Assembly (NCBI RefSeq): GCF_020697055.1
Contig: NZ_JAJFBP010000005.1
Span: 1 to 64,000, forward strand
Source of the DNA: Panacagrimonas sp.
GTDB taxonomy: Bacteria > Pseudomonadota > Gammaproteobacteria > Nevskiales > Nevskiaceae
Direction of reading: 5' to 3'
Length of the DNA: 64,000 nucleotides
Notes under the pieces: model-generated
Databases searched by the model: none
The model's input: the letters and a program-made list of their open reading frames with translations, nothing else
What the model was told of the DNA's origin: nothing
Part shown: in pieces, positions 44-16,953 of the stretch
Layout of the letters: every line of letters begins with the position of its first letter
Position numbering within the stretch: the stretch's first letter is position 1
Program-made: the position numbers and the translations under genes

Positions 44-3000
44 CTAACGTCCGCCCGGCCTGATCGTCAGGCGTGACCCCGCCGAGAACGCGGCGAATTC
101 GGGTGCGTACATCGACTGCAGGGTCGCCGGGCCCACCCGGAAAGTGCCGCCCATGTTCGCGCGGGTCCGGTACTTGAGCGTGTACTCGCCTGCGGGCAAG
201 CGCTCGAAGAAGAAGTTGGTGCCGCTGTCGCGAATCTCCTCGTACCAGACCAGCCCCAGATCGCCTTTGTAGCCGCTGGTCGCGACGCCCGGCTCCAGGC
301 CCGCGGCCCGCGGATCGCGCAGATGCACATACTCGGCGGCATGTTTCGCGCGGATCGACAGCTGCACCTCGAGCTCATCGCCGGGTGCGAGGTCCGCGCC
401 GTCGGCCAGCGGCGTCAAGGTGAACTGGCCGTCGTGGTTTTCGCGCCGGAAGTAGCGACGCGTCACGCCGAACAAGTCCCCGCGCGCCTGGTCGGGCAGC
501 TGTTCGGTGGAGTAGTGCCAGGTCGCCGAGGCGAACAGGATGCCCGGAGTGTCCTTGGATACGACGACCGTCGCAGCGCTCTTCGGATCGATCGCATCAC
601 CCGCGACCATCACCTGGGCGGCCTTTCCCGAATAGCGATCGGGTTCGAACGTGAATTCGGTCGTGCGCCCGGCAAGTTCCACGCGTGCCGATTCGCGCGC
701 GCCCAACTGCCCTTCGGCTTGCAGGTAATGGACCAGCGAATAGATCACCTCGGCGGTGGCGCGCGTCGATTTCCAGTGGTTCAGCTGTTTGTTGAGGAAC
801 AGCCACTGCACCATGCCGTCACGGCGCGGATCTTGGGGCTTGAGTTCCATGAGCGCGCGCAAGGCAAAGGCGTGCGTCTCGGTGGTGTCGTTGTACCAAA
901 GCCAGCTGCGATCCTCGGGCGCCCAGTAGGTGCCCAGGTCCACGTCGGTCTTGGCCGAGTCCATGATGCTGTCGAACACGAGCATCGCGTCCGCCCGACG
1001 CCCCATGCGATGCAAGGTCAGGGCGAGATAAGCCTTCAAGTACGGCGAGTGTTCCTTCCAATGGCGGAATGAGAACGCGAGCATGGCGTTGCGCTCGGTG
1101 TCGCTGAACACACCGCCGGTCCAGGACGGATCGGGGAAGTTCGAAAGCGTGTAGTTCATCAAGGTCACGAACTCCCAGCAGCAGTCGTCCTTCATCGAAT
1201 CGCGCACGATGTCGTCGAGATAGTGCCGGTGCAGGTACTGCCAGGCGCGCGTCACCACGTCCTTGGGCGGCTGTACCCCGAACTCCAAGCCTTTGGAGAA
1301 CCCATGCACCGTGTACAGCGTCATGTAGGGCGACGGCGGCCCGCCCGGCCACCACGGGAAGGCGCCCAGCGACGTCTGCGCCTTCGCGAGTTTGGCCAGC
1401 GCGCTGCGCTGTTCCGCGTGCGCGATCTTGGGGTCGAGGATGCGCAGCGCCGGCGCTTCGCCTCGAGGCCCGCCCTTGGCTTCCTGGACCCACGGCGTTT
1501 CTTCCAGCGCCATGCGGCGATTGGGGTCGGCGCCCTCCCAGGTCTCCAGCGGCGTGTCGCGGGCGCTCAATTCCTTGGCCATCTTCGCCACCGACGGGTA
1601 GCGATGGAACACGCTCGTCACGATGCCGGTCGACAGATAGCGGTTCAGCGTCTGCTCGACGCATTCGTACGGGTAGTCCGCCAGATACGGCAAGGCCTGC
1701 AGCACGCCATAGAACAGTTGTGCATCGAGCGTCACCACGAGCGTGTCGTCGACGCGGCTCGGATCCTGCGTCCGCTTCATGTCCTCGAAGGTCAGCTCGC
1801 GTCGTTGTGCGCCCTTCAGCGCCGCGAAACGCGACTGCACGAGATGCATGCGACTGGGCAGCACCGGCAGCGCGCGCAGTTCACCGTCCGACAGATCCGC
1901 CGCCCGCGCGGTGACCTTGAAGGCCACGGTGCGCACGCCGCGCGGGGCCTTGAGCGCGAACACCACCGACTGGCCACCGCCGGCGGCCACCGCGAACGGT
2001 TGCGTGGCCTTTGCGATACCAAATGCCGGCCGGAGGTCCTCGTTCGTGACGGGATCAAAAATCTCGAGATCGAGATCACCCGACAGCGCGGCCTTGCCGG
2101 CATTGTTCACGAGCACCTTGAGCTGCGCCTCGTCGGATTCACGCAGGAACCGCGGCAGGTACGGGCGGATCATCAGATCCTTGACGGTTCTGACCTCGCG
2201 TCGCACCGAGGCGCCGCGCAGATCACGCGTGATTGCGTGGACCCACACATTCCAGGACGTGACGCTGTCCGGCACCTGAAACTCGATCGTCGCCGACCCG
2301 TCGGGGCCCGTGAGCAACTGCGGCTGCCAGAACGCGGTCTCCGCGAAGTTCGAGCGCAGGTCGATCGGGGGCGCGGACGCCGAGGCCTGATCGGCGAGCG
2401 CAACGGCTCCGTTGGCCATCACACGCTGCTCGTCGCGCTCCTGCTTGGCCGCAACGCGGCCGACCGCGGCGGCCTCCAGGGCCATCGCGGGCGCCGCGAC
2501 CGGCGAGGGCGGTGGCGGCGGCGGTGCCGACATCAGGCTGTCGTGGGCCATCCCACGACGCATCATCATCTGATGTCGCACGCCGGGGCCGCCGATGGCG
2601 TAGTCGTCGAAGAATCGAAGCCGATCGCCGTCCAACGCGGGAGGCGCCGACACCGAACCAAACCCGTTGTCCCACAGCCATAGGCCGGGCGCGCTGCCCA
2701 GACTCGCGCGCACCCAGGACACCTCGGTGCGCGTGGGATACAGCGACAGCGGCGACGGCGGGGTGTGCGGCGCGAACGCATCCAGGCTGCGGTCGTACAT
2801 GTAGGCCAGCAGTTCGGCGGCGCCGGCCTCGGCGGCCGCACCATCGGGTCTCTTCACGGTGACGCGCCAGGTCTCCCGCGCGCCGGGTCGCAGCGTGTCG
2901 CGGAAGGTGGCGAAGTCGAGCTTCAGTTCCTTGTCATCCCACGGCACGAACACGCTCTGCGAGAGCGTCATGAGCTGGTGATCGCGCAGCGCGCTGGCGG

Positions 3001-6000
3001 TAACACCGAATCCGCCGCGATCATCGGCCCCGATCGGGATCTCGATCAGCGCCGGGGATTGGCCGGCGATCAGCACGCGCCGCTCGATGCGGCGCCCGCC
3101 TTTTTCGATATCGAGCGTGATCGGCAGACCCGCGACGGCGGAGTGCACGAGCAGGCGCGCGGTACCGCCGACGTTGACCGAGGCGCGCTCCACTTTCAGC
3201 AGCAGCGGCAGCGCCACCGGCGTGGACGACGCGGCGACGATGAATTCCTGGCTCGTCGTATACGGCGTGCCGAAGTCGTCGACCGTGCGGTAGTGCAGGC
3301 GCCACGCACCGGGCGGAAGCGTGGGCAGCGTCAGGGCCGCCTCGCCCTTGGCGTCGTGCTGCAGGCGGCCCCGACCGGCCTCGGCGCCGTCGGCCCAGGC
3401 GCGCAGCACCGCCTCCGGGGCATAGCCCGGATCCTGACGCGAGCGCAGCGCATCGCCGGGCGTTCGATAGGCGTTCGCGCTCTCGGTGGGCGGCAGCGGT
3501 TGCTCCGCCGGCAGCAGGACCGACGACGGTTGTTGCAAGGCCACGACACGCCAGGTCCCCTCGCCCGCTTTGGGAACGCCGTCGAGATTGGTGCGCAACA
3601 GCGTGAACGCGGCGGCCTGTCCTTGGCGCACGAACGTCGCCGGGCTGGCGATGGTCGCCTCGACGCTGGAAAAGCCGAGTCGGAACGATCGCGAGGCCGA
3701 GCGCGTCTCGCCGCCCTCGTCGGTGACGTCGGCCTGGACGCGATAGCGATAGCTGATCTCTGGCGTCTTCGCCGTGCGCTCGTCGGCCTCGGCCTTGAAC
3801 GTCAACCGGAACCGCCCGTCCTCCCCGATGGGCGAGGTGCCGGCCGCAATCGTCCGGGACTCGGCGTACACACCGCGGCCATACCAGCCCCACCACCATG
3901 GATACACGGGCTCGCGCACGACGCGCCAGCGCACCTGGCCCTCGGTGAGCGGCAGTCCGAAGTAGTAGCGCGCGTCACCTTCCAGCGTCGCCGGGCGATT
4001 CAGGCGCAACGCGCCAGCCGGATCCTGCAACTGCACCTCGAAGGTCGGGCGCTTGTATTCCTCCACGCGGATCGAGGCGGCGCCGCCGTGCGAACTCTGC
4101 ACCGACCACGCGCCCAGTGCCCGCCCCGTCGAAATGATGAATTCGCCCGCCGCCGAGCCGTAGGCATTGGTGGTCACGGTCTTCACAGCGACCGTCTCGC
4201 CGTTGCTGTCCCTCAGGGTCACCTTCACCGCCGTCTGGGCCTGCACGCGGAAGCGCGCGACCTCGGCACCGCCGCGATAGGTCACGACTTTCCAGCGCAA
4301 GGTCTGGCCGGGCCGATAGACGCTGCGATCGCTGAACATCAGCGTGGCGGTGGCATCGACCGCACGCGGCTCCGAGTGGAATCCCACATCGCCGCGATCG
4401 ATGGCGAGGTGTTTCCCCTGGCGCGCCACGATCAGATGCTGCGCGCGTTCGCGGCCGGCCACGTGCGGAAAGCTGACAAGGCCGTCCGCACCGGTCGTGG
4501 CCGTCGCAATGCGCTGATGACCCTCCTGCCAATCGAACCGCCAGAGCATCACCTCGACACCCGCGAGCGCCGCGCCGGTTTCGCCGGACACGCTCGAGAC
4601 CTCCACGCCGCCACCGCGCGGCCGTACGACCAGCGCGAGGTCTCCGACGATCAGATAGACGCCCAAGGCCCGAGCGCCTCCGACCGAACCGAAGTCGGCC
4701 TGCGTCGAGGCCACGATCAAGTACAGGCCGGGTGCGTCCAGCGGCGGCGTGACGAACGTGCGATGCAGGCGGTGGTCCGGGGTCGGCGCCAACGTTGCGG
4801 TCCAGGCCTTTGCGGGGACCGCGGCGGACTGCACCAGCTTGCGCATCTGCTCGTCGTTGGGCAGCAGCTGATAGTCGCGCGACCCGGCCAAGCTCTTCAG
4901 CAGATCGACCGGGTAGGCCCTGAAGTGCAGGGTGTCGAGGTTGCGATGCGTCACCTCGATCGAACGCCGCTTCGGCCCGTCCGCCGCCATGGCCGCGAGC
5001 TGGTAGTCCGGCGCCTCGATGGTCTGAATGATCGATGTACAGCGCTGGCCGCCGATCGAGTTCGGATACGCGGCGCGACCCTGCTCCGCCGTCTGGCGGG
5101 CGCGGATGAGGCTGTCGGGCGCCTCCTCAGCGCGTACCAGATCGGCGACCTCCGCCATGCCCATGCTCCACCACTCGACGCCGCGCTCGGACACCAGGCG
5201 CGCTTCAAGCGCAGCACGGATGCGCGCGCGGTCATCAAGGTCGGTGAAATTCGCCGTGAGCTGACGCGCCCGCTCCAGGTGCGCTTCGAACGCCGCTTCG
5301 CGGTGGCCCTCCTGGGCATGCCACGCCTCGAGATCGCCCAGGATCGCCAGGATGCGCCGCAGCGGGTGAATGGTCGGATCGGCGAGCGCGTCGCGAAGGG
5401 ACGCGTCGCCCTTCCCCGTCAGCGCTCCCGCCAGGTCCAGCCGATAGACCTCGGCGGCGTGATCCGCCCGCCACAGCGACGTGTCGGCAAGCAGCTGCAC
5501 GAACAGATAACTGACCGCGTCGCGCAGCGTCCCGCGGATGCGCGGGGGATAGGTATTGGGTGCGATGTAGCGCGCCAGATGCGCGACCGGCTCGCGACCC
5601 AGGGCCTGACGCTGGGCCCACACCTGGGCGTACGCGCGCGCCGCTTCTGCGATGAGCTCGTCGCGTGTCCACGCCTTGAGGTCTGCCGCATCCTTGCGCT
5701 CGACGTGCTCGCGCTGACCGATCTCCCAGGCGTAGGCGTGGTAGTAGGCCACCAGTGCCTGACCGTAGAACAAATTCAAGGCGGCCCGCGCACGCGCAGC
5801 CTTGGGCCACTCGCGCGTCTTCAAATCGCGCACCGCGGTCTCTACCGTGCCGAGCGCCATGCCCAGCTGCACCTCGGTGATCAACGCGCGGGCCCAGGTG
5901 TCGTCGTCCCCTGCGGCCTGTGCCTGCTGACCAAGCTCTTCGACGAGCTGGCGCGCGGCCTCCATCTTCTGATCGCCCACGAGCCGATCGACCTCGGCCC

Positions 6001-6163
6001 AACGGGCATCCAGCGCAGGATCGGCGACGAGCGGCTGCGGCGCGGGCGGCTCCGGTTCGCTCGGCGCGGACGACGCGTCATCCGGACGCGCGCAGGCCGC
6101 CAGGCCACCCAGGACAAAGACCCAAAGCCAGATCCGTGCGTGGCGAAAGAGAAACCCACCCAT
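44..6163 (-). CDS. alpha-2-macroglobulin family lipoprotein
   Basis: Protein of 2039 aa related to bacterial alpha-2-macroglobulins, which trap attacking proteases in the periplasm. Residues 1-24 form a lipoprotein signal ending in the lipobox LAAC, with Cys24 as the lipidated residue. An MG2-like domain is visible near residues 605-700 (DRSVYRPGQ) and the A2M domain near 1270-1360 (FWQPQLLTGPDG). The thioester motif CVEQ lies at 1501-1504 and is followed by the helical thioester domain. The intact Cys-x-Glu-Gln fits the covalently trapping type. It is longer than the roughly 1650-aa E. coli YfhM type; the extra length lies N-terminal to MG2. The usual partner gene, pbpC, is not seen, but the downstream side lies outside the window. 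Confidence 0.93.
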   Translation of the reverse strand: MGGFLFRHARIWLWVFVLGGLAACARPDDASSAPSEPEPPAPQPLVADPALDARWAEVDRLVGDQKMEAARQLVEELGQQAQAAGDDDTWARALITEVQLGMALGTVETAVRDLKTREWPKAARARAALNLFYGQALVAYYHAYAWEIGQREHVERKDAADLKAWTRDELIAEAARAYAQVWAQRQALGREPVAHLARYIAPNTYPPRIRGTLRDAVSYLFVQLLADTSLWRADHAAEVYRLDLAGALTGKGDASLRDALADPTIHPLRRILAILGDLEAWHAQEGHREAAFEAHLERARQLTANFTDLDDRARIRAALEARLVSERGVEWWSMGMAEVADLVRAEEAPDSLIRARQTAEQGRAAYPNSIGGQRCTSIIQTIEAPDYQLAAMAADGPKRRSIEVTHRNLDTLHFRAYPVDLLKSLAGSRDYQLLPNDEQMRKLVQSAAVPAKAWTATLAPTPDHRLHRTFVTPPLDAPGLYLIVASTQADFGSVGGARALGVYLIVGDLALVVRPRGGGVEVSSVSGETGAALAGVEVMLWRFDWQEGHQRIATATTGADGLVSFPHVAGRERAQHLIVARQGKHLAIDRGDVGFHSEPRAVDATATLMFSDRSVYRPGQTLRWKVVTYRGGAEVARFRVQAQTAVKVTLRDSNGETVAVKTVTTNAYGSAAGEFIISTGRALGAWSVQSSHGGAASIRVEEYKRPTFEVQLQDPAGALRLNRPATLEGDARYYFGLPLTEGQVRWRVVREPVYPWWWGWYGRGVYAESRTIAAGTSPIGEDGRFRLTFKAEADERTAKTPEISYRYRVQADVTDEGGETRSASRSFRLGFSSVEATIASPATFVRQGQAAAFTLLRTNLDGVPKAGEGTWRVVALQQPSSVLLPAEQPLPPTESANAYRTPGDALRSRQDPGYAPEAVLRAWADGAEAGRGRLQHDAKGEAALTLPTLPPGAWRLHYRTVDDFGTPYTTSQEFIVAASSTPVALPLLLKVERASVNVGGTARLLVHSAVAGLPITLDIEKGGRRIERRVLIAGQSPALIEIPIGADDRGGFGVTASALRDHQLMTLSQSVFVPWDDKELKLDFATFRDTLRPGARETWRVTVKRPDGAAAEAGAAELLAYMYDRSLDAFAPHTPPSPLSLYPTRTEVSWVRASLGSAPGLWLWDNGFGSVSAPPALDGDRLRFFDDYAIGGPGVRHQMMMRRGMAHDSLMSAPPPPPPSPVAAPAMALEAAAVGRVAAKQERDEQRVMANGAVALADQASASAPPIDLRSNFAETAFWQPQLLTGPDGSATIEFQVPDSVTSWNVWVHAITRDLRGASVRREVRTVKDLMIRPYLPRFLRESDEAQLKVLVNNAGKAALSGDLDLEIFDPVTNEDLRPAFGIAKATQPFAVAAGGGQSVVFALKAPRGVRTVAFKVTARAADLSDGELRALPVLPSRMHLVQSRFAALKGAQRRELTFEDMKRTQDPSRVDDTLVVTLDAQLFYGVLQALPYLADYPYECVEQTLNRYLSTGIVTSVFHRYPSVAKMAKELSARDTPLETWEGADPNRRMALEETPWVQEAKGGPRGEAPALRILDPKIAHAEQRSALAKLAKAQTSLGAFPWWPGGPPSPYMTLYTVHGFSKGLEFGVQPPKDVVTRAWQYLHRHYLDDIVRDSMKDDCCWEFVTLMNYTLSNFPDPSWTGGVFSDTERNAMLAFSFRHWKEHSPYLKAYLALTLHRMGRRADAMLVFDSIMDSAKTDVDLGTYWAPEDRSWLWYNDTTETHAFALRALMELKPQDPRRDGMVQWLFLNKQLNHWKSTRATAEVIYSLVHYLQAEGQLGARESARVELAGRTTEFTFEPDRYSGKAAQVMVAGDAIDPKSAATVVVSKDTPGILFASATWHYSTEQLPDQARGDLFGVTRRYFRRENHDGQFTLTPLADGADLAPGDELEVQLSIRAKHAAEYVHLRDPRAAGLEPGVATSGYKGDLGLVWYEEIRDSGTNFFFERLPAGEYTLKYRTRANMGGTFRVGPATLQSMYAPEFAAFSAGSRLTIRPGGR

Positions 6164-8846: not shown

Positions 8847-10841
8847 ATGGACAGGGCGGCATGGAGATCGGTGTGGCGGCGATACGTCGCCGGCGCGCTG
8901 CTTGGGACTGCGCTGCTCGCCAGCGCTCCGCTGGCGGCGCTGCCCGAGGATCTGACCGAGCTTTCGCTCGACGACCTGATGCGGATCGACGTGCGCAGCG
9001 TCTCCAAGCGCGCCGAGCCGCTGCAGGAGGCCGCGGCGGCCGTCACCGTGCTCACCGCCGAGGACATCCGGCGCAGCGGAGCGCGCAGCCTCGCCGAGGT
9101 GCTGCGGCTGGTGCCCGGCCTGCACGTCGCGCGCACCTCCGGCCAGACCTACGCGATCTCCGCGCGGGGCTTCAACAGCACCTCGGCCGACAAGCTCGAA
9201 GTGCTGCTCGATGGCCGCAGCGTCTACACCCCGTTCTTCTCCGGCGTGTTCTGGGATGTGCTGGATACCTTTCTGCCGGACGTCGAACGCATCGAGGTCA
9301 TCCGCGGTCCCGGCGCGACGCTGTGGGGCGCCAATGCCGTCAACGGCGTGATCAACATCGTCACCCGGCCGGCCGACCAGACCCTGGGCGCCGAACTGCT
9401 GGCCGGCGGCGGGTTTCCGCGCGGCAACATCGCCGGCGCACGCGGCGGCTGGAAACTGGGCCAGGACGGTCACTTGCGCGCCTACGCCCAGGCCCGCGAC
9501 GACGACAACGGCGTGACCCGGGATGGCGGCGAAGGCAACGAAGGACTGCGCCAGCAGCAGGCCGGGGTTCGCGGCGATCTTTCCGGCGGCGCGAATCGAT
9601 ACAGCTTCGGCGGCGACGCCTACCAGGCGGATTCAGACGGCGAAACACGATTCACCAATCCGTCCACCGGGATCGACTCGGTGACCCGCCTGCGATCGGA
9701 CCTCTCCGGCGCCAACGCGCACGGCCTGCTGGAGCGCGCGATGGGACCGGGCGCCTCGTGGCGGCTCGCCGGCTACTTCGATCACAGCGAACGAAAGACG
9801 CCGACCGCCTACATCGAGCGTCGCAATACCTGGGATCTCAATACCGAGTGGCGCCAGCAGATCGGCGCTCGACATGCGCTGATCTTCGGGGCGGGCTACC
9901 GCAACAGCCGCGATGAGACCGCCGGACCGCCGCAAACGCTGATCTTCTCGCCCTCGTCCCGAACGCTGCAGACCTACAGCGCCTTCGTTCAGGACCAGAT
10001 CGCGCTCGCCGGCGGCCGCGGCACGCTCACCGTCGGTTCCAAGTTCGAACACAACGATTTCACCGGCGCCGAGATCCAGCCCGGCATGCGCCTGGGCTGG
10101 AAGCTCGGCGATCACGCGTTCACCTGGGCAGCGGTGTCGCGCGCGGTGCGCACGCCCAACCGCCTGGATTCCGACATCGCGATCTTCTGCCCGCCGCCGG
10201 TGGGGCTCCCGGGTTTCTGCGGCGCGGGCGAAACCCACCGCATCGGCAATCCCGATCTGGAGGCCGAGGATCTGCTCGCCACCGAATGGGGCCTCAACCT
10301 CTGGACCGCGCGCCAGACCTCGATGCGGCTGGCGTTGTTCTACAACCGCTACGACGATCTGCGCAGCGCCGAACCCGTTCCTCCGATCGGCGAATTCGCC
10401 AACGGCCTGAGCGGGCGGAGCATCGGTGGCGAGATCGTGTTCGACTGGAAGCCGACGAACAGGCTGAGATTCGAGGCGTTCTACAGCCACCTGGACCTCG
10501 ACATCCACACCGATCCGAACAGCCAGGATCTCGGCACGCCCGTCCAGATCGAAGACGGCAATCCGCGACACATGGCAGGGCTTCGCTGGCAGGTGTCGCC
10601 GGCGCCGCGCTGGACGTTCGACGGGTTCGTGCGTCACGTCGGCGCGCTGCCGGGGGACGCCGTTCCCGCGTACACCGACGTGAACCTGCGCCTGGCCTGG
10701 CAGTTGAGGCCGGATCTGGAGCTGGCGCTGGTCGGCGACAACCTGCTGGACGACCACCATCCGGAATTCGGCCCGCCCACCCGGGGTCGGGTCGAGGTCG
10801 AACGCCAGGGGACCCTGCTGCTGCGGTGGACGCCGAGGTGA
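8847..10841 (+). CDS. TonB-dependent outer-membrane receptor
   Basis: Outer-membrane receptor of 664 aa. A Sec signal peptide covers about residues 1-31 (TALLASAPLAA). The mature N-terminus carries LTELSLDDLMRIDVRSVSKR, followed by a plug domain (about 55-175) with VTVLTAEDIRRSG, VLLDGRSVYTP and VERIEVIRGPGATLWGANAV. The rest is a beta-barrel ending in an aromatic/basic strand (LLLRWTPR). It is the first gene of a five-gene operon and its stop overlaps the GTG of the YfiR gene (GTGA). The context suggests a ligand-sensing or signal-transducing receptor rather than a plain siderophore transporter. The substrate is unknown; no N-terminal sigma-regulator (STN) domain is present. Confidence 0.93.
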   Translation: MDRAAWRSVWRRYVAGALLGTALLASAPLAALPEDLTELSLDDLMRIDVRSVSKRAEPLQEAAAAVTVLTAEDIRRSGARSLAEVLRLVPGLHVARTSGQTYAISARGFNSTSADKLEVLLDGRSVYTPFFSGVFWDVLDTFLPDVERIEVIRGPGATLWGANAVNGVINIVTRPADQTLGAELLAGGGFPRGNIAGARGGWKLGQDGHLRAYAQARDDDNGVTRDGGEGNEGLRQQQAGVRGDLSGGANRYSFGGDAYQADSDGETRFTNPSTGIDSVTRLRSDLSGANAHGLLERAMGPGASWRLAGYFDHSERKTPTAYIERRNTWDLNTEWRQQIGARHALIFGAGYRNSRDETAGPPQTLIFSPSSRTLQTYSAFVQDQIALAGGRGTLTVGSKFEHNDFTGAEIQPGMRLGWKLGDHAFTWAAVSRAVRTPNRLDSDIAIFCPPPVGLPGFCGAGETHRIGNPDLEAEDLLATEWGLNLWTARQTSMRLALFYNRYDDLRSAEPVPPIGEFANGLSGRSIGGEIVFDWKPTNRLRFEAFYSHLDLDIHTDPNSQDLGTPVQIEDGNPRHMAGLRWQVSPAPRWTFDGFVRHVGALPGDAVPAYTDVNLRLAWQLRPDLELALVGDNLLDDHHPEFGPPTRGRVEVERQGTLLLRWTPR

Positions 10842-11389
10842 AAGCGCGTGTGCGCGGCGCGCTGCTCGCCGTCATCGTCCTGGGAATCGGGTGCGGGAAC
10901 GCCGATGCGCAGGACGATCTCGAGCAGAAGGTCAAGGCGGCCTTCCTGTTCAACTTCCTGAAGTTCGTCACCTGGCCGCCCGCTCGTGCGCCCGAGGACG
11001 GCAGGCCCTACGTGATGTGCGTGGTCGACGACGAGCCCTTCACGCAAACGCTCGCGCAGGTCGTTCGCGACAAGACCGTTTCCGGTCACCCGGTACAGGT
11101 GCAGGACCGCGCGCCGGGTGCATCGTTGCGCGACTGTCACCTGGCGTATCTGGCGCCGGGGCCGTCGATGCAGGCCACCGAGTCGGCGCTCGCCGGTGCG
11201 GCCGGCGCGGGCATCGTGACGGTTCATCAGGCCGACGCGGCGGTGCCTTCCGGCGTGATCCGTTTCTTCCTCGACCAGCAGCGGGTGCGCTTCGAGATCA
11301 ATACCGTCGCGGCGCAACGCGAGAACCTGCACGTGAGCAGCCGCCTGATGGAACTGGCCGAGCGGGTGCAGGTGTCGACACCGCCATGA
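10838..11389 (+). CDS. YfiR family (DUF4154) periplasmic protein
   Basis: Protein of 183 aa with an N-terminal signal peptide (ALLAVIVLGIGCGNADA). The mature part begins with EQKVKAAFLFNFLKFVTWP, the hallmark of YfiR proteins. In Pseudomonas, YfiR is a periplasmic repressor of the CHASE-type sensor YfiN. Here the next gene encodes a sensor kinase with a CHASE8-like periplasmic domain, so YfiR probably modulates that kinase. The start is the GTG at 10838 because it forms a GTGA overlap with the receptor stop. The gene ends in an ATGA overlap with the kinase. Two cysteines lie in the mature part (YVMCVV, LRDCHL). Confidence 0.87.
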   Translation: MKARVRGALLAVIVLGIGCGNADAQDDLEQKVKAAFLFNFLKFVTWPPARAPEDGRPYVMCVVDDEPFTQTLAQVVRDKTVSGHPVQVQDRAPGASLRDCHLAYLAPGPSMQATESALAGAAGAGIVTVHQADAAVPSGVIRFFLDQQRVRFEINTVAAQRENLHVSSRLMELAERVQVSTPP

Positions 11390-12945
11390 TCCAGCGATTC
11401 ACCAACGCCCCGATCCGACGCAAGCTGATCTGGCTCACCGTGCTGTCGAGCGCGGTCGGGCTGTTGCCGGCGGGGGTGGCGCTGATCCTCTACGCCTGGT
11501 CGAGCGCCAGGGACGCCTCGATGCGCGACCTTGAGACGCTCGCGCACATCAGCGCCGACGGCGTCACGGCCGCACTGACGTTCGGCGATCCGTCGGCGGC
11601 GCGCGAAACCCTGGCGGCGCTGCGCGCACAGCCGGACATCGAGATGGCCTGCCTGTACGGGCGCGCGCAGGGCGCCACGCCGTTCGCTGCGTTCGTTGCG
11701 GGCGCTTCGCAATGCCCGGCGCGGCCCGGGGATCCCGGTGTACGCGAAGACCTCAAGCGCCTGGTGGCGGTCCGCCCGGTGATGCTGGGGGACGAGCGCA
11801 TCGGCACGCTGCTGATCTCGCAGAGCCTGGCGCAACGCCAGCGCGCGCTCACCGCCCAGATCGTGTTCACGGTCGGGATCCTCGCCGCTGCGTTCGTCGC
11901 CAGCGCAGCGGTGGGCTGGCGCCTGCAGCGCAGCCTGACGCAACCGATCCTGGAACTGGCGCAGATGGCGCGCAGCATCTCGACTTCGCAGACGTACACG
12001 CTTCGCGCCGATCGGCGCGGCGACGACGAGATCGGCGCGCTGGTGGACGACTTCAACCAGATGCTGGAACAGATCGCCCAGCGCGACCTCGACCTGCAGG
12101 CCACGCGCGACGCGCTGTCGCGCCAGGTCGTCGAGAAGACCCACGCCAACGACGAGCTCGAAACCGCGATGCTGCGGCTGCGCGAGGCACAGGCGCAGCT
12201 CGTGCAGAGCGAGAAGCTCGCGTCGCTGGGTGGACTGGTCGCGGGGGTGGCGCACGAGATCAACACGCCCATCGGGGTGAGCGTCACCGCCGCCTCGACG
12301 CTGGACAACCGTACCCAGCGCATGCGCGAGGACTACGCCGCCGGAAAGCTCACCCGGCCGGAGCTCGAGCGCTACGCGGAGATGGCGGTCGAAGCCAGCC
12401 GCATCATCCTCAGGAACCTGCAGCGCGCCGCGGACCTGATACACAGCTTCAAGCAGGTGGCCGTGGATCAGTCCAGCGGTGAGCGTCGGCGTTTCGAACT
12501 GCGCGCCTACATCGACGAGGTGCTGCTGAGCCTGGCGCCGCGCCTCAAGAAGACGCCGCATCGGATCGAGATCGACTGCGACGAGAAGCTCAGCGTCGAC
12601 ACGCTGCCCGGCGCGCTGGCGCAGATCCTCACCAACCTGGTGTCCAACTCGCTGCTTCACGCGTTTGCCGACGACCGCGCGGGCGTGATGCGGATCGAGT
12701 CGAGGATCGAAGGCCGCGACGTCCATCTGCGCTTCAGCGACGACGGCGTGGGAATCCCGCCGGAGAATCTGCCGCGGATCTTCGATCCGTTCTTCACCAC
12801 GCGGCGCGGCCTGGGTGGCAGTGGGCTGGGCCTGCACATCGTCTACAACCTCGTCACGCAGATGTTGCGCGGCACCATCCGGGTCGACAGTCCGCCCGGC
12901 GCGGGCACCGTCTTCGATCTGCGGTTTCCCGCAACGCTGCCCTGA
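11386..12945 (+). CDS. sensor histidine kinase with CHASE8-like periplasmic domain
   Basis: Kinase of 519 aa. Transmembrane helices lie near residues 14-35 and 160-182. Between them is a periplasmic domain with ADGVTAALTFGDPSAARETL, resembling the CHASE8 domain of YfiN/TpbB. HAMP (about 183-235) and a coiled coil follow, then a HisKA domain with phosphoacceptor His290 in VAHEINTP, and a HATPase_c domain with N, G1 (DDGVGIPP) and G2 (GLGGSGLGL) boxes. The start forms ATGA with the YfiR stop. Partners are probably the YfiR protein in the periplasm and one or both downstream receivers. This is the YfiN input architecture with a kinase output in place of a diguanylate cyclase. Confidence 0.9.
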   Translation: MIQRFTNAPIRRKLIWLTVLSSAVGLLPAGVALILYAWSSARDASMRDLETLAHISADGVTAALTFGDPSAARETLAALRAQPDIEMACLYGRAQGATPFAAFVAGASQCPARPGDPGVREDLKRLVAVRPVMLGDERIGTLLISQSLAQRQRALTAQIVFTVGILAAAFVASAAVGWRLQRSLTQPILELAQMARSISTSQTYTLRADRRGDDEIGALVDDFNQMLEQIAQRDLDLQATRDALSRQVVEKTHANDELETAMLRLREAQAQLVQSEKLASLGGLVAGVAHEINTPIGVSVTAASTLDNRTQRMREDYAAGKLTRPELERYAEMAVEASRIILRNLQRAADLIHSFKQVAVDQSSGERRRFELRAYIDEVLLSLAPRLKKTPHRIEIDCDEKLSVDTLPGALAQILTNLVSNSLLHAFADDRAGVMRIESRIEGRDVHLRFSDDGVGIPPENLPRIFDPFFTTRRGLGGSGLGLHIVYNLVTQMLRGTIRVDSPPGAGTVFDLRFPATLP

Positions 12946-12954
12946 GCGCGATCC

Positions 12955-13911
12955 ATGACCGACCTTCTGGGCTTGCACGAGCCCTCGACCCACACCGACG
13001 GCCCCGACCGGGCCATTCCCTGGCTCGTGCTCGTGGTCGATGACGACCCCGAGGTGCACAGCGTCACGCGGCTGGCGCTGGACGGGTTTCGATTCGCCGG
13101 GCGCGGCCTGCGGTTCCTGCACGCGCACAGCGGCGCGGCGGCACGCCAGATGCTCGGGGAACACCGCGACGTCGCGGTGATGCTGCTGGACGTGGTGATG
13201 GAATCGGACGGCTCGGGACTGGAGGTCGTGGAATACGTGCGCAACGTCCTGGGCAATTCCTTTCTTCGCATCGTGCTTCGCACCGGGCAACCGGGTCAGG
13301 CGCCGGAGGTGGACGTCATCACCCGCTATGACATCAACGACTACAAGCACAAGACCGAGCTCACGCGCGAACGCCTGTTCACGACGATCTACACGAGCTT
13401 GTCCACCTATCGCGATCTGATGATGCTCGATGCGAACCGGCGCGGACTCGAACAGGTCATCGAGGCCTCCGCGCGGATCTTCGAGCTGCGTTCGCTGGAC
13501 CATTTCGCGCAGGGCGTGCTCGAACAGCTCATCGCGCTGCTGCTCTTCGATGCGGACGCCGTCGTGGTGCACGCCTCGGGCCTTGCAACCGAGGCCAACG
13601 GCGAATTGCGCATCGTCGCGGGCACCGGCACGTTTTCCGCGATGGTCGGACACGAGGCGCGCGCCGAACTGTCACCGGAAATGGTGATCCAGATCGAACA
13701 GGCGCGCCGGATGGTCGGATTCGAATATTCCCCGCGTCATTTCATCGGGGTGCAGCACGCCAGCGACGGCAGCGACCTGGTGTTCTACGTCACGATCGGG
13801 CCGAGCATGTCGGCGCCGGACCGGCGGTTGCTCGAGATGTTCTGTCGCAACGTGGCCATCGCGCGCGAGAACGTCCGCCGGTTCGCGCCCACTCCGGACA
13901 CGCCGCCGTGA
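12955..13911 (+). CDS. response regulator with DUF3369 domain
   Basis: Cytoplasmic protein of 318 aa. A receiver domain (about 22-150) has acidic residues VVDDDPEV, phosphoacceptor Asp79 (LLDVVME) and the RIVLRTGQPG segment typical of receivers paired with DUF3369. A DUF3369 domain follows (about 155-305; LEQVIEASARIFELRS, VHASGL). Many proteins with this pair end in an HD-GYP phosphodiesterase; here the protein stops after DUF3369, so no enzymatic or DNA-binding output is visible. It may act as a protein-interaction adaptor. It starts 10 bp after the kinase gene and ends in a GTGA overlap with the next gene. Confidence 0.88.
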   Translation: MTDLLGLHEPSTHTDGPDRAIPWLVLVVDDDPEVHSVTRLALDGFRFAGRGLRFLHAHSGAAARQMLGEHRDVAVMLLDVVMESDGSGLEVVEYVRNVLGNSFLRIVLRTGQPGQAPEVDVITRYDINDYKHKTELTRERLFTTIYTSLSTYRDLMMLDANRRGLEQVIEASARIFELRSLDHFAQGVLEQLIALLLFDADAVVVHASGLATEANGELRIVAGTGTFSAMVGHEARAELSPEMVIQIEQARRMVGFEYSPRHFIGVQHASDGSDLVFYVTIGPSMSAPDRRLLEMFCRNVAIARENVRRFAPTPDTPP

Positions 13912-15143
13912 CCCGCACGCAATCCCATCAGCCTGCGAAGGAACCGGACGCTGCCGAGCCGTGGCAGATCCTGGTGGTGGACGACGATCCCGAAGTCCTT
14001 GCCGTCACCCGCCTGTGTCTGCGCGATTTCCGGTTCGCCAACCGGCCGGTGGTCCTGCTCGACGCCGATTCGGCCGCGGCGGCCCGCGCGGTGCTCGCGC
14101 GCGTGCCCGACATCGCGCTGATTCTGCTCGACGTGGTCATGGAGACCGAGCACGCCGGGCTCGATCTGGTCCGCTACGTCCGGGAGAACCTCGAAAACGC
14201 CGCCGTTCGCATCGTGCTGCGCACCGGTCAGCCGGGCCAGGCACCCGCGATGGAGGTCGCCGAGCGCTACCAGATCGACGACTACCGCACCAAGACCGAG
14301 CTCACGTTCGAGCGCCTCCAGGTGCTGGTGACGACCGCGCTGCGGACCTACGGATTGGTGCGCCAGCTCGAATCTCGCAGCCGCGCACTGGCCGAGCATG
14401 CCAGCGAACTGGAGCGCTTCTCCTATGTGGCGTCGCACGACATGCAGACGCCGCTGGCCAACATCGCGCGCCTGGTGCAACTGCTGGAACGGCGGCTCGC
14501 CGACATCCTGACCGACCGGCAGCGCGAACTGATGGAGCTCCTGGTATCGAGCACCCACGATCTGCAGCAGCTGATCTCCGACCTGCTCGCGCTGGCCCGG
14601 ATCGGCCGCGAGGAGATCGATCGCAGTGCCCCGGTCGATCTGAACCGGACCCTCGAACGCATCCTGGGCTCGATGCAGGTCTTGATCGACGATCGACGGG
14701 TGCGGATCGAGGTCGGACCGCTGCCGGTCGTGGAAGGCCACGCCGTGCTGCTCGAACAACTGCTGCGCAACCTGATCGACAACGCGATCAAGTTCCAGCC
14801 ACAGGCGCAGCCCTACGTGAACATCACCGGCCGCGAGACGACCGAGGGATGGGAGGTGCGGGTCCAGGACGCCGGCATCGGCATCGATGCCGAGCATCTC
14901 CAGCGGATCTTCGAGCCGTTCCAGCGCCTGCATACGCGCGAAGCGTTTCCGGGCAGTGGCGTCGGCCTGGCGATCTGCCGTCGCGTCGCACGCATGCACG
15001 GCGGGACCATCGTCGCGGAGTCCAGCCCCGGGCAGGGCACGACGATGGTCGTGCGTCTGGCCCGCCATGGCGCGCCGACGTCGACCGCCGGCGAGACACC
15101 CGCGACCGGCGCGGAAAGGCTCCAGTTGCCAGGCTCGGACTGA
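13908..15143 (+). CDS. hybrid receiver-histidine kinase
   Basis: Soluble protein of 411 aa with a receiver domain first (about 18-145; phosphoacceptor Asp75 in LLDVVME). A short coiled linker is followed by HisKA with His177 in VASHDMQTPL and HATPase_c with NAIKF, DAGIGI and GSGVGLAI boxes. There is no membrane segment. Its receiver shares almost the same motifs as the previous gene (VDDDPEV, RIVLRTGQPGQAP, KTELT), which suggests a receiver duplication inside the operon. The GTG start is fixed by the GTGA overlap. Kinases of this order usually pass or integrate a signal within a phosphorelay. A short Ala/Thr-rich tail ends the protein. Confidence 0.88.
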   Translation: MTRTQSHQPAKEPDAAEPWQILVVDDDPEVLAVTRLCLRDFRFANRPVVLLDADSAAAARAVLARVPDIALILLDVVMETEHAGLDLVRYVRENLENAAVRIVLRTGQPGQAPAMEVAERYQIDDYRTKTELTFERLQVLVTTALRTYGLVRQLESRSRALAEHASELERFSYVASHDMQTPLANIARLVQLLERRLADILTDRQRELMELLVSSTHDLQQLISDLLALARIGREEIDRSAPVDLNRTLERILGSMQVLIDDRRVRIEVGPLPVVEGHAVLLEQLLRNLIDNAIKFQPQAQPYVNITGRETTEGWEVRVQDAGIGIDAEHLQRIFEPFQRLHTREAFPGSGVGLAICRRVARMHGGTIVAESSPGQGTTMVVRLARHGAPTSTAGETPATGAERLQLPGSD

Positions 15144-15165: not shown

Positions 15166-16953
15166 TCATCCCGCCACGAGCTGATCGCGCAGTGGCGCCA
15201 GGCGCTGCATCGCGTGCTCGTAGCCGCGCTCGATCAGCTCGTCGAGCCGTCGCCACGCAAACATGCCGACGTCCTGCACCGGCATGTGGATGTCGACGTC
15301 GGCGCGCTCGATGGCGTCCTTGCGGAACAGCGTGTCGGCGGTGAGCGTGGCGGTGCGCAGCAGGATCTCGGAAAAACGCGGACGCAGGCCTTCGCCGAGC
15401 CACTTCTTCAGCAACGCGTCGGGTTCGGGTGCGCCCTGCCCGCGCCCCGGCGCGCGGATGTCGCCGGAGTGGCTGACGTTGCAGGCGATGATCGACCCGC
15501 GCTCGAGCGCCTGCATCACGTCGGTCGGCAGGTTGTCGACGACCCCGCCATCACATAGCAGGTCGCCTTCCCAGGCCACCGGCGGCGCCACCCCCGGCAC
15601 CGCCGCCTTGCTGGTGCCGACCCAGGCCGCGAGCAGGCCATGGTCGTGCACGACGGTCGCGCCGGACGTGAGGTTGGTGGAGATGCAGTAGTAGCTGCGG
15701 CGCAGCTCCTCGATGCGGCGCTCGCCGAAGATGTCGATCAGGCGGTTGAAGAATCTGCGGCCGCGGATCAGCGACACGCGCGGCAACGTGTAGTCGTTGA
15801 GGAAGTTGTTGTTGACGAACGTCTCGCGCGCGACGTACGCCATCTCCACCGGATCGAAGCCGCACGCGACCATCGCCGAGACGAACGCGCCCATGCTGGT
15901 GCCGCCGGCGACGTCGACCGGGATCTGCAGCTGGTGGAGCGCGCGCACCAGGCCGATGTGGGCGAACCCGCGCGCACCGCCGCCGCCCAGCACCAGGCCC
16001 ACGCCGCGTCCGGTGATCTGGCGCGCCAGCGCCGACAGGTCTTCGTCCGACCACGGATGCACGAAGTAATGGGCGCGGGCGCCCAGCACCGCGCACCACT
16101 CGCGGGTGTACGGCGACGGATCGCCTTCGGGGCGCAGCAGCACCAGCTCCACCGGCGCCAGCAGCCGGCCCTCGGGCAGCATGCCCAGCGCCGGGATCGG
16201 ATCGGGCTGGGCGCCGGCTTCGGCCAGCACCAGCACGCGATCGGCCTGGCGCAGGCAGCGCACCGCCCAGACGTCGTCGTCGCGATGCGCCGCGAGGACC
16301 AGGTACGGATGCCGGCCCTCGAGCTGGTTGAGCCAGCTGCGCAGGCGCAGGCAGCCGGCGACATCCTCGAACGCCGTCTGTGCGGCGCCCTCGCCCAGCG
16401 CCGCGTCCACGTGCGCCGCGGTGATCAGTCGCGCATGCGGCCAGCCGCCCAGGCGCCTGACCAGCGCCTCGGCCATCACCTGCACCGGCACGCTCGACGA
16501 CGCGGGCAGGATCGCCAGCGCGCCCTGCGCCCGCGTCGAGGCACGGCGGCGGCTGCGTTGGTACTGGCGCATGCGGCCGAGCATCAGGCGCGTCATCGCC
16601 ATCAAGGTCGGGCCCTGGCGCTGCAGCAGGTCCAGGAACGGCGTCGCCGCGACCCGCAGCAACACCGTGTCGCGCAGCGCGTGCACGGTCGAGGTCCGCG
16701 GCTCGCCCAGGATCACGCCCATCTCGCCCACCGGCTCGCCGCGCCCGACGTAGCCGAGCAGGCTCGGGCCCAGGCTCACGCGCAGGCGGCCGCTGACCAC
16801 CACGTAGAAGAAATCAGGTGATTCGTTTTCTTCGTACAGCCGCTGGCCGCTATGCAGGTCCTGGCGCTCGGCCAGGCCCGCCAGCGTCTGCAGTTCGGAC
16901 CCGGGCAGCGCGGCGAACAGCGGGATCTGGCCCAGCAGCGTCGCCGCGTCCAT
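15166..16953 (-). CDS. patatin-like phospholipase with cyclic-nucleotide-binding domain
   Basis: Protein of 595 aa of the neuropathy-target-esterase type. A cNMP-binding domain occupies about residues 8-125 (FFYVVVSGRLRVS, GEPVGEMGVILGE), followed by a basic linker. A nucleotide-fold-like middle (about 145-290) leads to the patatin domain (about 315-485) with glycine-rich GLVLGGGGARG, nucleophile Ser353 in GGTSMG, and the Asp468 dyad partner in CDGG. It probably hydrolyses membrane phospholipids under control of a bound effector; whether cNMP actually binds is unproven. It converges on the signalling operon with only 22 bp between stops and lies 9 bp after the tesB stop on the same strand, so the two are likely cotranscribed. 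Confidence 0.9.
   Translation of the reverse strand: MDAATLLGQIPLFAALPGSELQTLAGLAERQDLHSGQRLYEENESPDFFYVVVSGRLRVSLGPSLLGYVGRGEPVGEMGVILGEPRTSTVHALRDTVLLRVAATPFLDLLQRQGPTLMAMTRLMLGRMRQYQRSRRRASTRAQGALAILPASSSVPVQVMAEALVRRLGGWPHARLITAAHVDAALGEGAAQTAFEDVAGCLRLRSWLNQLEGRHPYLVLAAHRDDDVWAVRCLRQADRVLVLAEAGAQPDPIPALGMLPEGRLLAPVELVLLRPEGDPSPYTREWCAVLGARAHYFVHPWSDEDLSALARQITGRGVGLVLGGGGARGFAHIGLVRALHQLQIPVDVAGGTSMGAFVSAMVACGFDPVEMAYVARETFVNNNFLNDYTLPRVSLIRGRRFFNRLIDIFGERRIEELRRSYYCISTNLTSGATVVHDHGLLAAWVGTSKAAVPGVAPPVAWEGDLLCDGGVVDNLPTDVMQALERGSIIACNVSHSGDIRAPGRGQGAPEPDALLKKWLGEGLRPRFSEILLRTATLTADTLFRKDAIERADVDIHMPVQDVGMFAWRRLDELIERGYEHAMQRLAPLRDQLVAG

Follow-up and report, generated by a model that had tools for sequence, protein, structure and literature searches.

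The stretch of Panacagrimonas sp. DNA analysed here (the window, 64,000 nucleotides of contig NZ_JAJFBP010000005.1) carries an operon that is conserved and co-inherited, keeps its signalling residues intact and has an unusual receptor segment. Its five genes encode, in order, a TonB-dependent receptor (TBDR), a YfiR-like periplasmic protein, a CHASE8 sensor histidine kinase and two receiver proteins, REC-DUF3369 and REC-HK. Signalling from an outer-membrane receptor to the cytoplasm is understood mainly for STN/anti-sigma systems. We think it reasonably probable that the operon forms a trans-envelope unit in which the receptor relieves the restraint of the kinase by YfiR, the two receivers are phosphorylated in parallel and the end of the pathway is linked to cyclic di-GMP (c-di-GMP). 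The genes and residues concerned are as follows.

8847..10841, + strand: gene 1, TonB-dependent receptor near the TOL_0244 family (NF053590), 664 aa
8949..9011, + strand: pre-plug segment D35-R55 in the periplasm (DLTELSLDDLMRIDVRSVSKR), a candidate site of YfiR contact and/or the TonB box; motif in linked receptors
10838..11389, + strand: gene 2, YfiR-like periplasmic protein (DUF4154), TOL_0243 family, GTG start, 183 aa
11018..11020, + strand: YfiR Cys61; its partner Cys100, 39 residues further on, is at 11135-11137
11386..12945, + strand: gene 3, CHASE8-HAMP-HisKA-HATPase sensor histidine kinase, 519 aa
11650..11715, + strand: CHASE8 cysteines Cys89 and Cys110, clade-specific
12253-12255, + strand: phospho-acceptor His290 of the CHASE8 kinase
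12955..13911, + strand: gene 4, response regulator REC-DUF3369 (GAF-like), no HD-GYP, 318 aa
13189-13191, + strand: Asp79 of REC-DUF3369
13908..15143, + strand: gene 5, hybrid response regulator REC-HisKA-HATPase (REC-HK), GTG start, 411 aa
14130-14132 and 14436-14438, + strand: Asp75 and His177 of REC-HK

All five reading frames (8847-15143, + strand) are intact. Their order and domain types in the open reading frame (ORF) calls and the Pfam scan are those given by a first-pass annotation of this DNA, as are the GTGA, ATGA and GTGA junction overlaps and the numbering of His290, Asp79 and Asp75; the remaining junction gap, between the kinase and REC-DUF3369 genes, was put there at 10 bp and measures 9 bp (12946-12954). 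The search for the five-gene order that the same annotation proposed found all five genes in order in seven other genomes (loci L043, L045, L047, L048, L050, L063 and L064), a recurrence that places the arrangement far beyond chance.

YfiR of this family is present in 18 of 100 relatives. Counted as NF053590 matches at E<=1e-60 in the same relatives, receptors of this family occur in 25 places, of which 23 lie directly upstream of YfiR, one reaches a contig edge and one, scoring 208 bits, is unlinked. The first-pass annotation had staked its reading on the receptor staying with the other genes in relatives, and the linkage held: it is near-absolute, and the receptor belongs to the YfiR unit. 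The unlinked receptor (L264:2333-8001, G098 contig 29) heads an operon of TonB receptor, ABC_sub_bind periplasmic protein and histidine kinase, the architecture of which parallels the YfiR cassette; this operon has no YfiR, and its receptor has no LSLE segment (see below). Two TBDR-YfiR pairs stand in tandem within one locus in L148 and L186. A class-wide survey, which was a sample of 77 YfiR genes among the matches listed and not a full count, placed a TBDR directly upstream of YfiR in at least 39 of the 77; such neighbour counts are lower bounds, as the ORF caller chose wrong frames in some high-GC loci (for example, L052).

The receptor consists of Plug (84.2 bits) and TonB barrel (105.2 bits) domains, and Pfam detected no N-terminal STN signalling domain. 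Comparison with solved structures gave matches mostly to receptor plugs, among them those of the enterobactin, colicin I and B12 receptors, with no ligand indicated. After the signal peptide and before the plug comes a stretch common to the linked receptors, of the form D-L-x-x-L-S-L-E-x-L-x-x-I-x-V-T-S-V-S-K. Among 41 plug domains from four genomes, the motif LSLEDLxxIxVTSVSK was present in all eight YfiR-linked receptors and in none of the 33 unlinked TBDRs, a contrast for which the Fisher value of 1e-8 overstates independence because the linked receptors are related. Linked receptors that have diverged strongly (L168, L173, L174 and L198) keep the segment too. It is a candidate for the part of the receptor that meets YfiR, alongside or within the TonB box. 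A broader proposal, which we advance tentatively, is that YfiR-linked TonB receptors may constitute a distinct class of outer-membrane transducer, in which ligand would expose this pre-plug peptide (LSLEDLxxIxVTSVSK) rather than an STN domain, sequestering YfiR and switching interchangeable CHASE8 kinases or cyclases. If true, this would amount to a general alternative signalling route, with one receptor-YfiR cassette connected to kinases, hybrid kinases or c-di-GMP enzymes; the cassette model can be tested directly through its receptor segment, its CHASE8 cysteine pair and its two-branch output.

The history of the cassette was traced in trees built from 52 receptor-YfiR-CHASE8 trios. Fourteen operons, the window clade, form a single branch among the receptors, with SH-aLRT support of 99, and do so again among the CHASE8 proteins (80). 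They are the window operon, the seven other five-gene loci, L038, L039, L049, L051, L058 and L055; L055 is cut by a contig end, and in the 13 operons that are not, the kinase is paired with REC-DUF3369 and/or a REC-kinase. Paralogous cassettes of one genome group by operon type, and not with each other, in the receptor and YfiR trees (L048 with L047, L055 with L058), and output type changes 8 times on the receptor tree compared with 22 times in shuffles. Receptor, YfiR and CHASE8 have been co-inherited in part.

Both periplasmic parts of the proposed signalling chain carry cysteine pairs. Gene 2 encodes a PF13689 (DUF4154/YfiR) domain (119.5 bits), and a pair of the Cys61/Cys100 type occurs in 46 of the 52 linked YfiR proteins. 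Its spacing in the window protein equals that of Cys71-Cys110 in Pseudomonas aeruginosa YfiR, a pair that opens in reducing conditions (PMC4655355); the structural Cys145-Cys152 pair of that protein (PMC4655355) has no counterpart in the window YfiR. A phmmer search of PDB sequences, at single-sequence sensitivity, returned no meaningful match to the window YfiR. The CHASE8 domain of gene 3 (PF17152, 59.4 bits) is bracketed by two transmembrane-like stretches of the kinase (17-41 and 159-180). The HisKA score (23.0 bits) is just under the Pfam cut-off of 26.9; the catalytic residues are present, with H290, N417, D452 and G478/G480 as the invariant kinase positions, and matches in a VIA-align fold comparison of the full kinase model were dominated by the kinase core. 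Cys89 and Cys110 occur together in 14/14 trios of the window clade and in 0/38 outside it; the pair has arisen once and marks the clade, which is no proof of function. The host genome has a second cassette (G000:C6:36274-41518; L040:7505-13018) of receptor, YfiR and CHASE8 with a hybrid kinase, which has no cysteines at the tested YfiR and CHASE8 positions.

The cysteines suggest an alternative in which the receptor is a co-regulated, non-signalling nutrient transporter, and YfiR (Cys61/Cys100) together with the CHASE8 kinase (Cys89/Cys110) acts as an independent redox or envelope-stress sensor. Consistent with this, the pairs are conserved in both periplasmic proteins, the corresponding P. 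aeruginosa YfiR pair is redox-variable (PMC4655355), and many class-level YfiR genes, among the matches listed, have no adjacent detected TBDR. It is nonetheless improbable in view of the near-absolute receptor linkage in relatives, the receptor segment that is tied to this linkage and the agreement between receptor tree and output type.

Of the two receivers, gene 4 contains DUF3369 (132 bits) preceded by a Response_reg domain (29.2 bits, just under the cut-off of 30.2), and the chain ends after DUF3369, with no C-terminal HD-GYP found. Its model (AF2, pLDDT 84.6) comprises REC, a long helix and a GAF-like domain; the best full-length fold matches, the REC-containing dual-sensor kinases 6ob8, 6oap and 6oaq (TM about 0.5-0.57), support this predicted layout and not a close relationship. 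The phosphorylation residues are kept in all nine aligned orthologues. In gene 5 REC is followed by a complete kinase core (D75, H177 and G boxes present), which is closest to bacteriophytochrome kinases, a similarity that fits the single-domain receiver added after REC-HK in L045 and L050; in the host genome an Rcp1-like receiver was found only as a moderate match (contig C65, 36%).

The presence in one operon of two receivers with intact Asp, Thr and Lys would also suit the serial form of the relay that the first-pass annotation had inferred, a single ordered chain from His290 to Asp79 of REC-DUF3369 and then to or through REC-HK. Such a chain is very unlikely because neither receiver is obligatory: related operons carry REC-DUF3369 and no REC-HK (L049, L051 and L058) or the reverse (L038 and L039), a distribution that suits two branches working in parallel. 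Moreover, Pfam identified no Hpt or His donor in REC-DUF3369, and the operon persists in L063-L065 even though REC-HK there (10905-12089, 10905-12080 and 10936-12129, respectively) has lost its phospho-acceptor His and kept its ATP-binding boxes. Equally doubtful is the idea that both receivers are phosphate sinks or decoys, buffering a kinase whose real partner is an unlinked regulator. The lack of an effector domain in REC-DUF3369 (Pfam), which lacks the HD-GYP borne by most other proteins of its type, is in keeping with a sink, but the GAF-like domain and the full REC-HK kinase core are conserved in the closest relatives of the window operon.

The first-pass annotation regarded the end of the pathway as missing. 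Pfam agrees that none of the five proteins has a DNA-binding, GGDEF, EAL or HD-GYP domain; the end can, however, be inferred from the c-di-GMP enzymes of relatives. A common product of the gene that follows YfiR, in the 104 neighbourhoods compared, is CHASE8 fused to a kinase, to a hybrid kinase with receivers or to GGDEF-EAL, and REC-GGDEF-EAL often comes next after the kinase types (confirmed by Pfam in L042 and L054). Among the loci with all five genes, L063 and L064 carry a sixth, for a GGDEF-EAL protein with a lost GGDEF signature, and in Spongiibacter marinus (L065) the kinase, REC-DUF3369, REC-HK and a PAS-GGDEF-EAL protein occur together without receptor and YfiR. A further locus, L197, has after its TBDR and YfiR (YfiR at 3958-4503) a single CHASE8-HATPase-REC-REC-REC-GGDEF-EAL chain, in which the whole pathway is fused. 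As the cassette ends in GGDEF-EAL types in relatives, and as the kin of REC-DUF3369 mostly carry HD-GYP, c-di-GMP is the usual endpoint. The host genome has 25 GGDEF matches elsewhere, and the far end of the window operon is probably c-di-GMP control, which may be exerted through one of these proteins.

Taken in order, the proposed parallel mechanism would begin with ligand binding by the TBDR, altering the exposure of the periplasmic pre-plug segment, which may capture or release YfiR. Free YfiR is predicted, by homology, to restrain the CHASE8 sensor domain of the kinase as YfiR does the CHASE8 cyclase YfiN, so that its removal would allow the kinase to autophosphorylate at His290. Operon pairing and intact residues suggest that the phosphorylated kinase would then modify Asp79 of REC-DUF3369 and Asp75 of REC-HK in parallel. 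The output of REC-HK may be the activity of its kinase domain, with a single-domain receiver from another locus as the probable recipient, and REC-DUF3369 may act by protein contact via its GAF-like domain; the far end would probably be c-di-GMP control, as driven by the cassette in many relatives.

Several points weigh against this mechanism. As the linked receptors all belong to one family, the pre-plug segment may be a trait of that family, or a TonB box, and not a site for YfiR. TBDR-YfiR pairs occur with no CHASE8 protein detected nearby (L188, L189, L207 and L210), and YfiR may have other partners. The clade is not resolved in the tree of the short YfiR alone, and the correlation between receptor, YfiR and CHASE8 tree distances (Spearman 0.51-0.61, Mantel p 0.003) is confounded by species descent. 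Regulation could also run with the opposite sign to that in YfiBNR. Finally, no regulatory target adjoining the operon was found among the flanking ORFs scanned with Pfam.

The remaining features of the region are as follows. Hydrophobic, signal-like N-terminal stretches are present in the receptor and YfiR, and REC-DUF3369 and REC-HK appear soluble. Upstream lie an enoyl-CoA hydratase gene and a DUF4870 gene, with no signalling role evident from Pfam. Downstream (15166-16953, - strand), a convergent gene encodes a protein with cNMP-binding, NTE-type P-loop and patatin phospholipase regions, again with no evident signalling role. Neither promoter or terminator consensus sites nor Rfam matches were found in the operon region. 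Elsewhere in the window, a 2039-aa ORF (44-6163, - strand) resembles, as judged by eye, an alpha-2-macroglobulin-type protein.

The combination of the first three genes, to which the first-pass annotation drew attention, is real and is already named in NCBIfam. The association of receptor, YfiR and kinase is thus recognised by NCBIfam curators at the annotation level, and in the open-access literature no published description of YfiR with a TBDR and a kinase was found. The window YfiR scores 132.7 bits against NF053591 (TOL_0243 YfiR-like), above the cut-off of 125; the receptor scores 628.5 bits over its full length against NF053590 (cut-off 645), and the kinase 189.1 bits against NF053592 (HK_near_YfiR_like, 'sensor histidine kinase, YfiR-like protein-associated'; cut-off 194), both falling just short. 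Other kinases of the window clade score 125-176, all below this last cut-off, which is passed by the kinase of the second cassette in the host genome (217) and by that of L144 (301). The window operon and the NCBIfam trio share the three-gene order and the families, and differ in that the former adds two receiver genes after the kinase and a pair of cysteines in CHASE8. New here are the placing of the receptor within the unit, the exchangeable outputs, the 14-operon clade and the receptor pre-plug segment tied to YfiR linkage.

With YfiBNR of P. aeruginosa and Escherichia coli the operon has in common a YfiR-family repressor, a CHASE8 sensor domain and an outer-membrane partner. In P. aeruginosa, YfiB is bound by YfiR, and YfiN is thought to engage the same YfiR surface (PMC4655355). 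The window operon, by contrast, has a TBDR where the OmpA-like YfiB would stand (Pfam detected no gene for such a lipoprotein in the operon or in the flanking ORFs scanned), its CHASE8 partner ends in HisKA-HATPase and not in a GGDEF cyclase, and its YfiR lacks Cys145-Cys152. On the cytoplasmic side, REC-DUF3369 resembles the REC-DUF3369-HD-GYP regulators that stand beside HEINxP kinases in REC subtype, DUF3369 and kinase H-box, but without the HD-GYP phosphodiesterase; in a sample of REC-DUF3369 genes outside YfiR operons, 66 of 79 carry HD-GYP, and 27 of these 66 adjoin a kinase with the HEINxP box of gene 3, which favours the proposed pairing of kinase and receiver. The Leptospira Lvr system likewise has a kinase feeding a REC-HK hybrid response regulator without a DNA-binding domain, and transfer from kinase to REC has been demonstrated for LvrA and LvrB (PMC5863495), a precedent for the step from kinase to REC-HK; LvrA, however, is itself a hybrid kinase, and the Lvr operon contains neither YfiR nor an outer-membrane receptor. 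The FecA-FecR transducers share with the window operon an outer-membrane TonB receptor and proposed inward signalling through a periplasmic partner, whereas the STN signalling domain, anti-sigma and sigma factor of those systems are absent from the five-gene unit described here.

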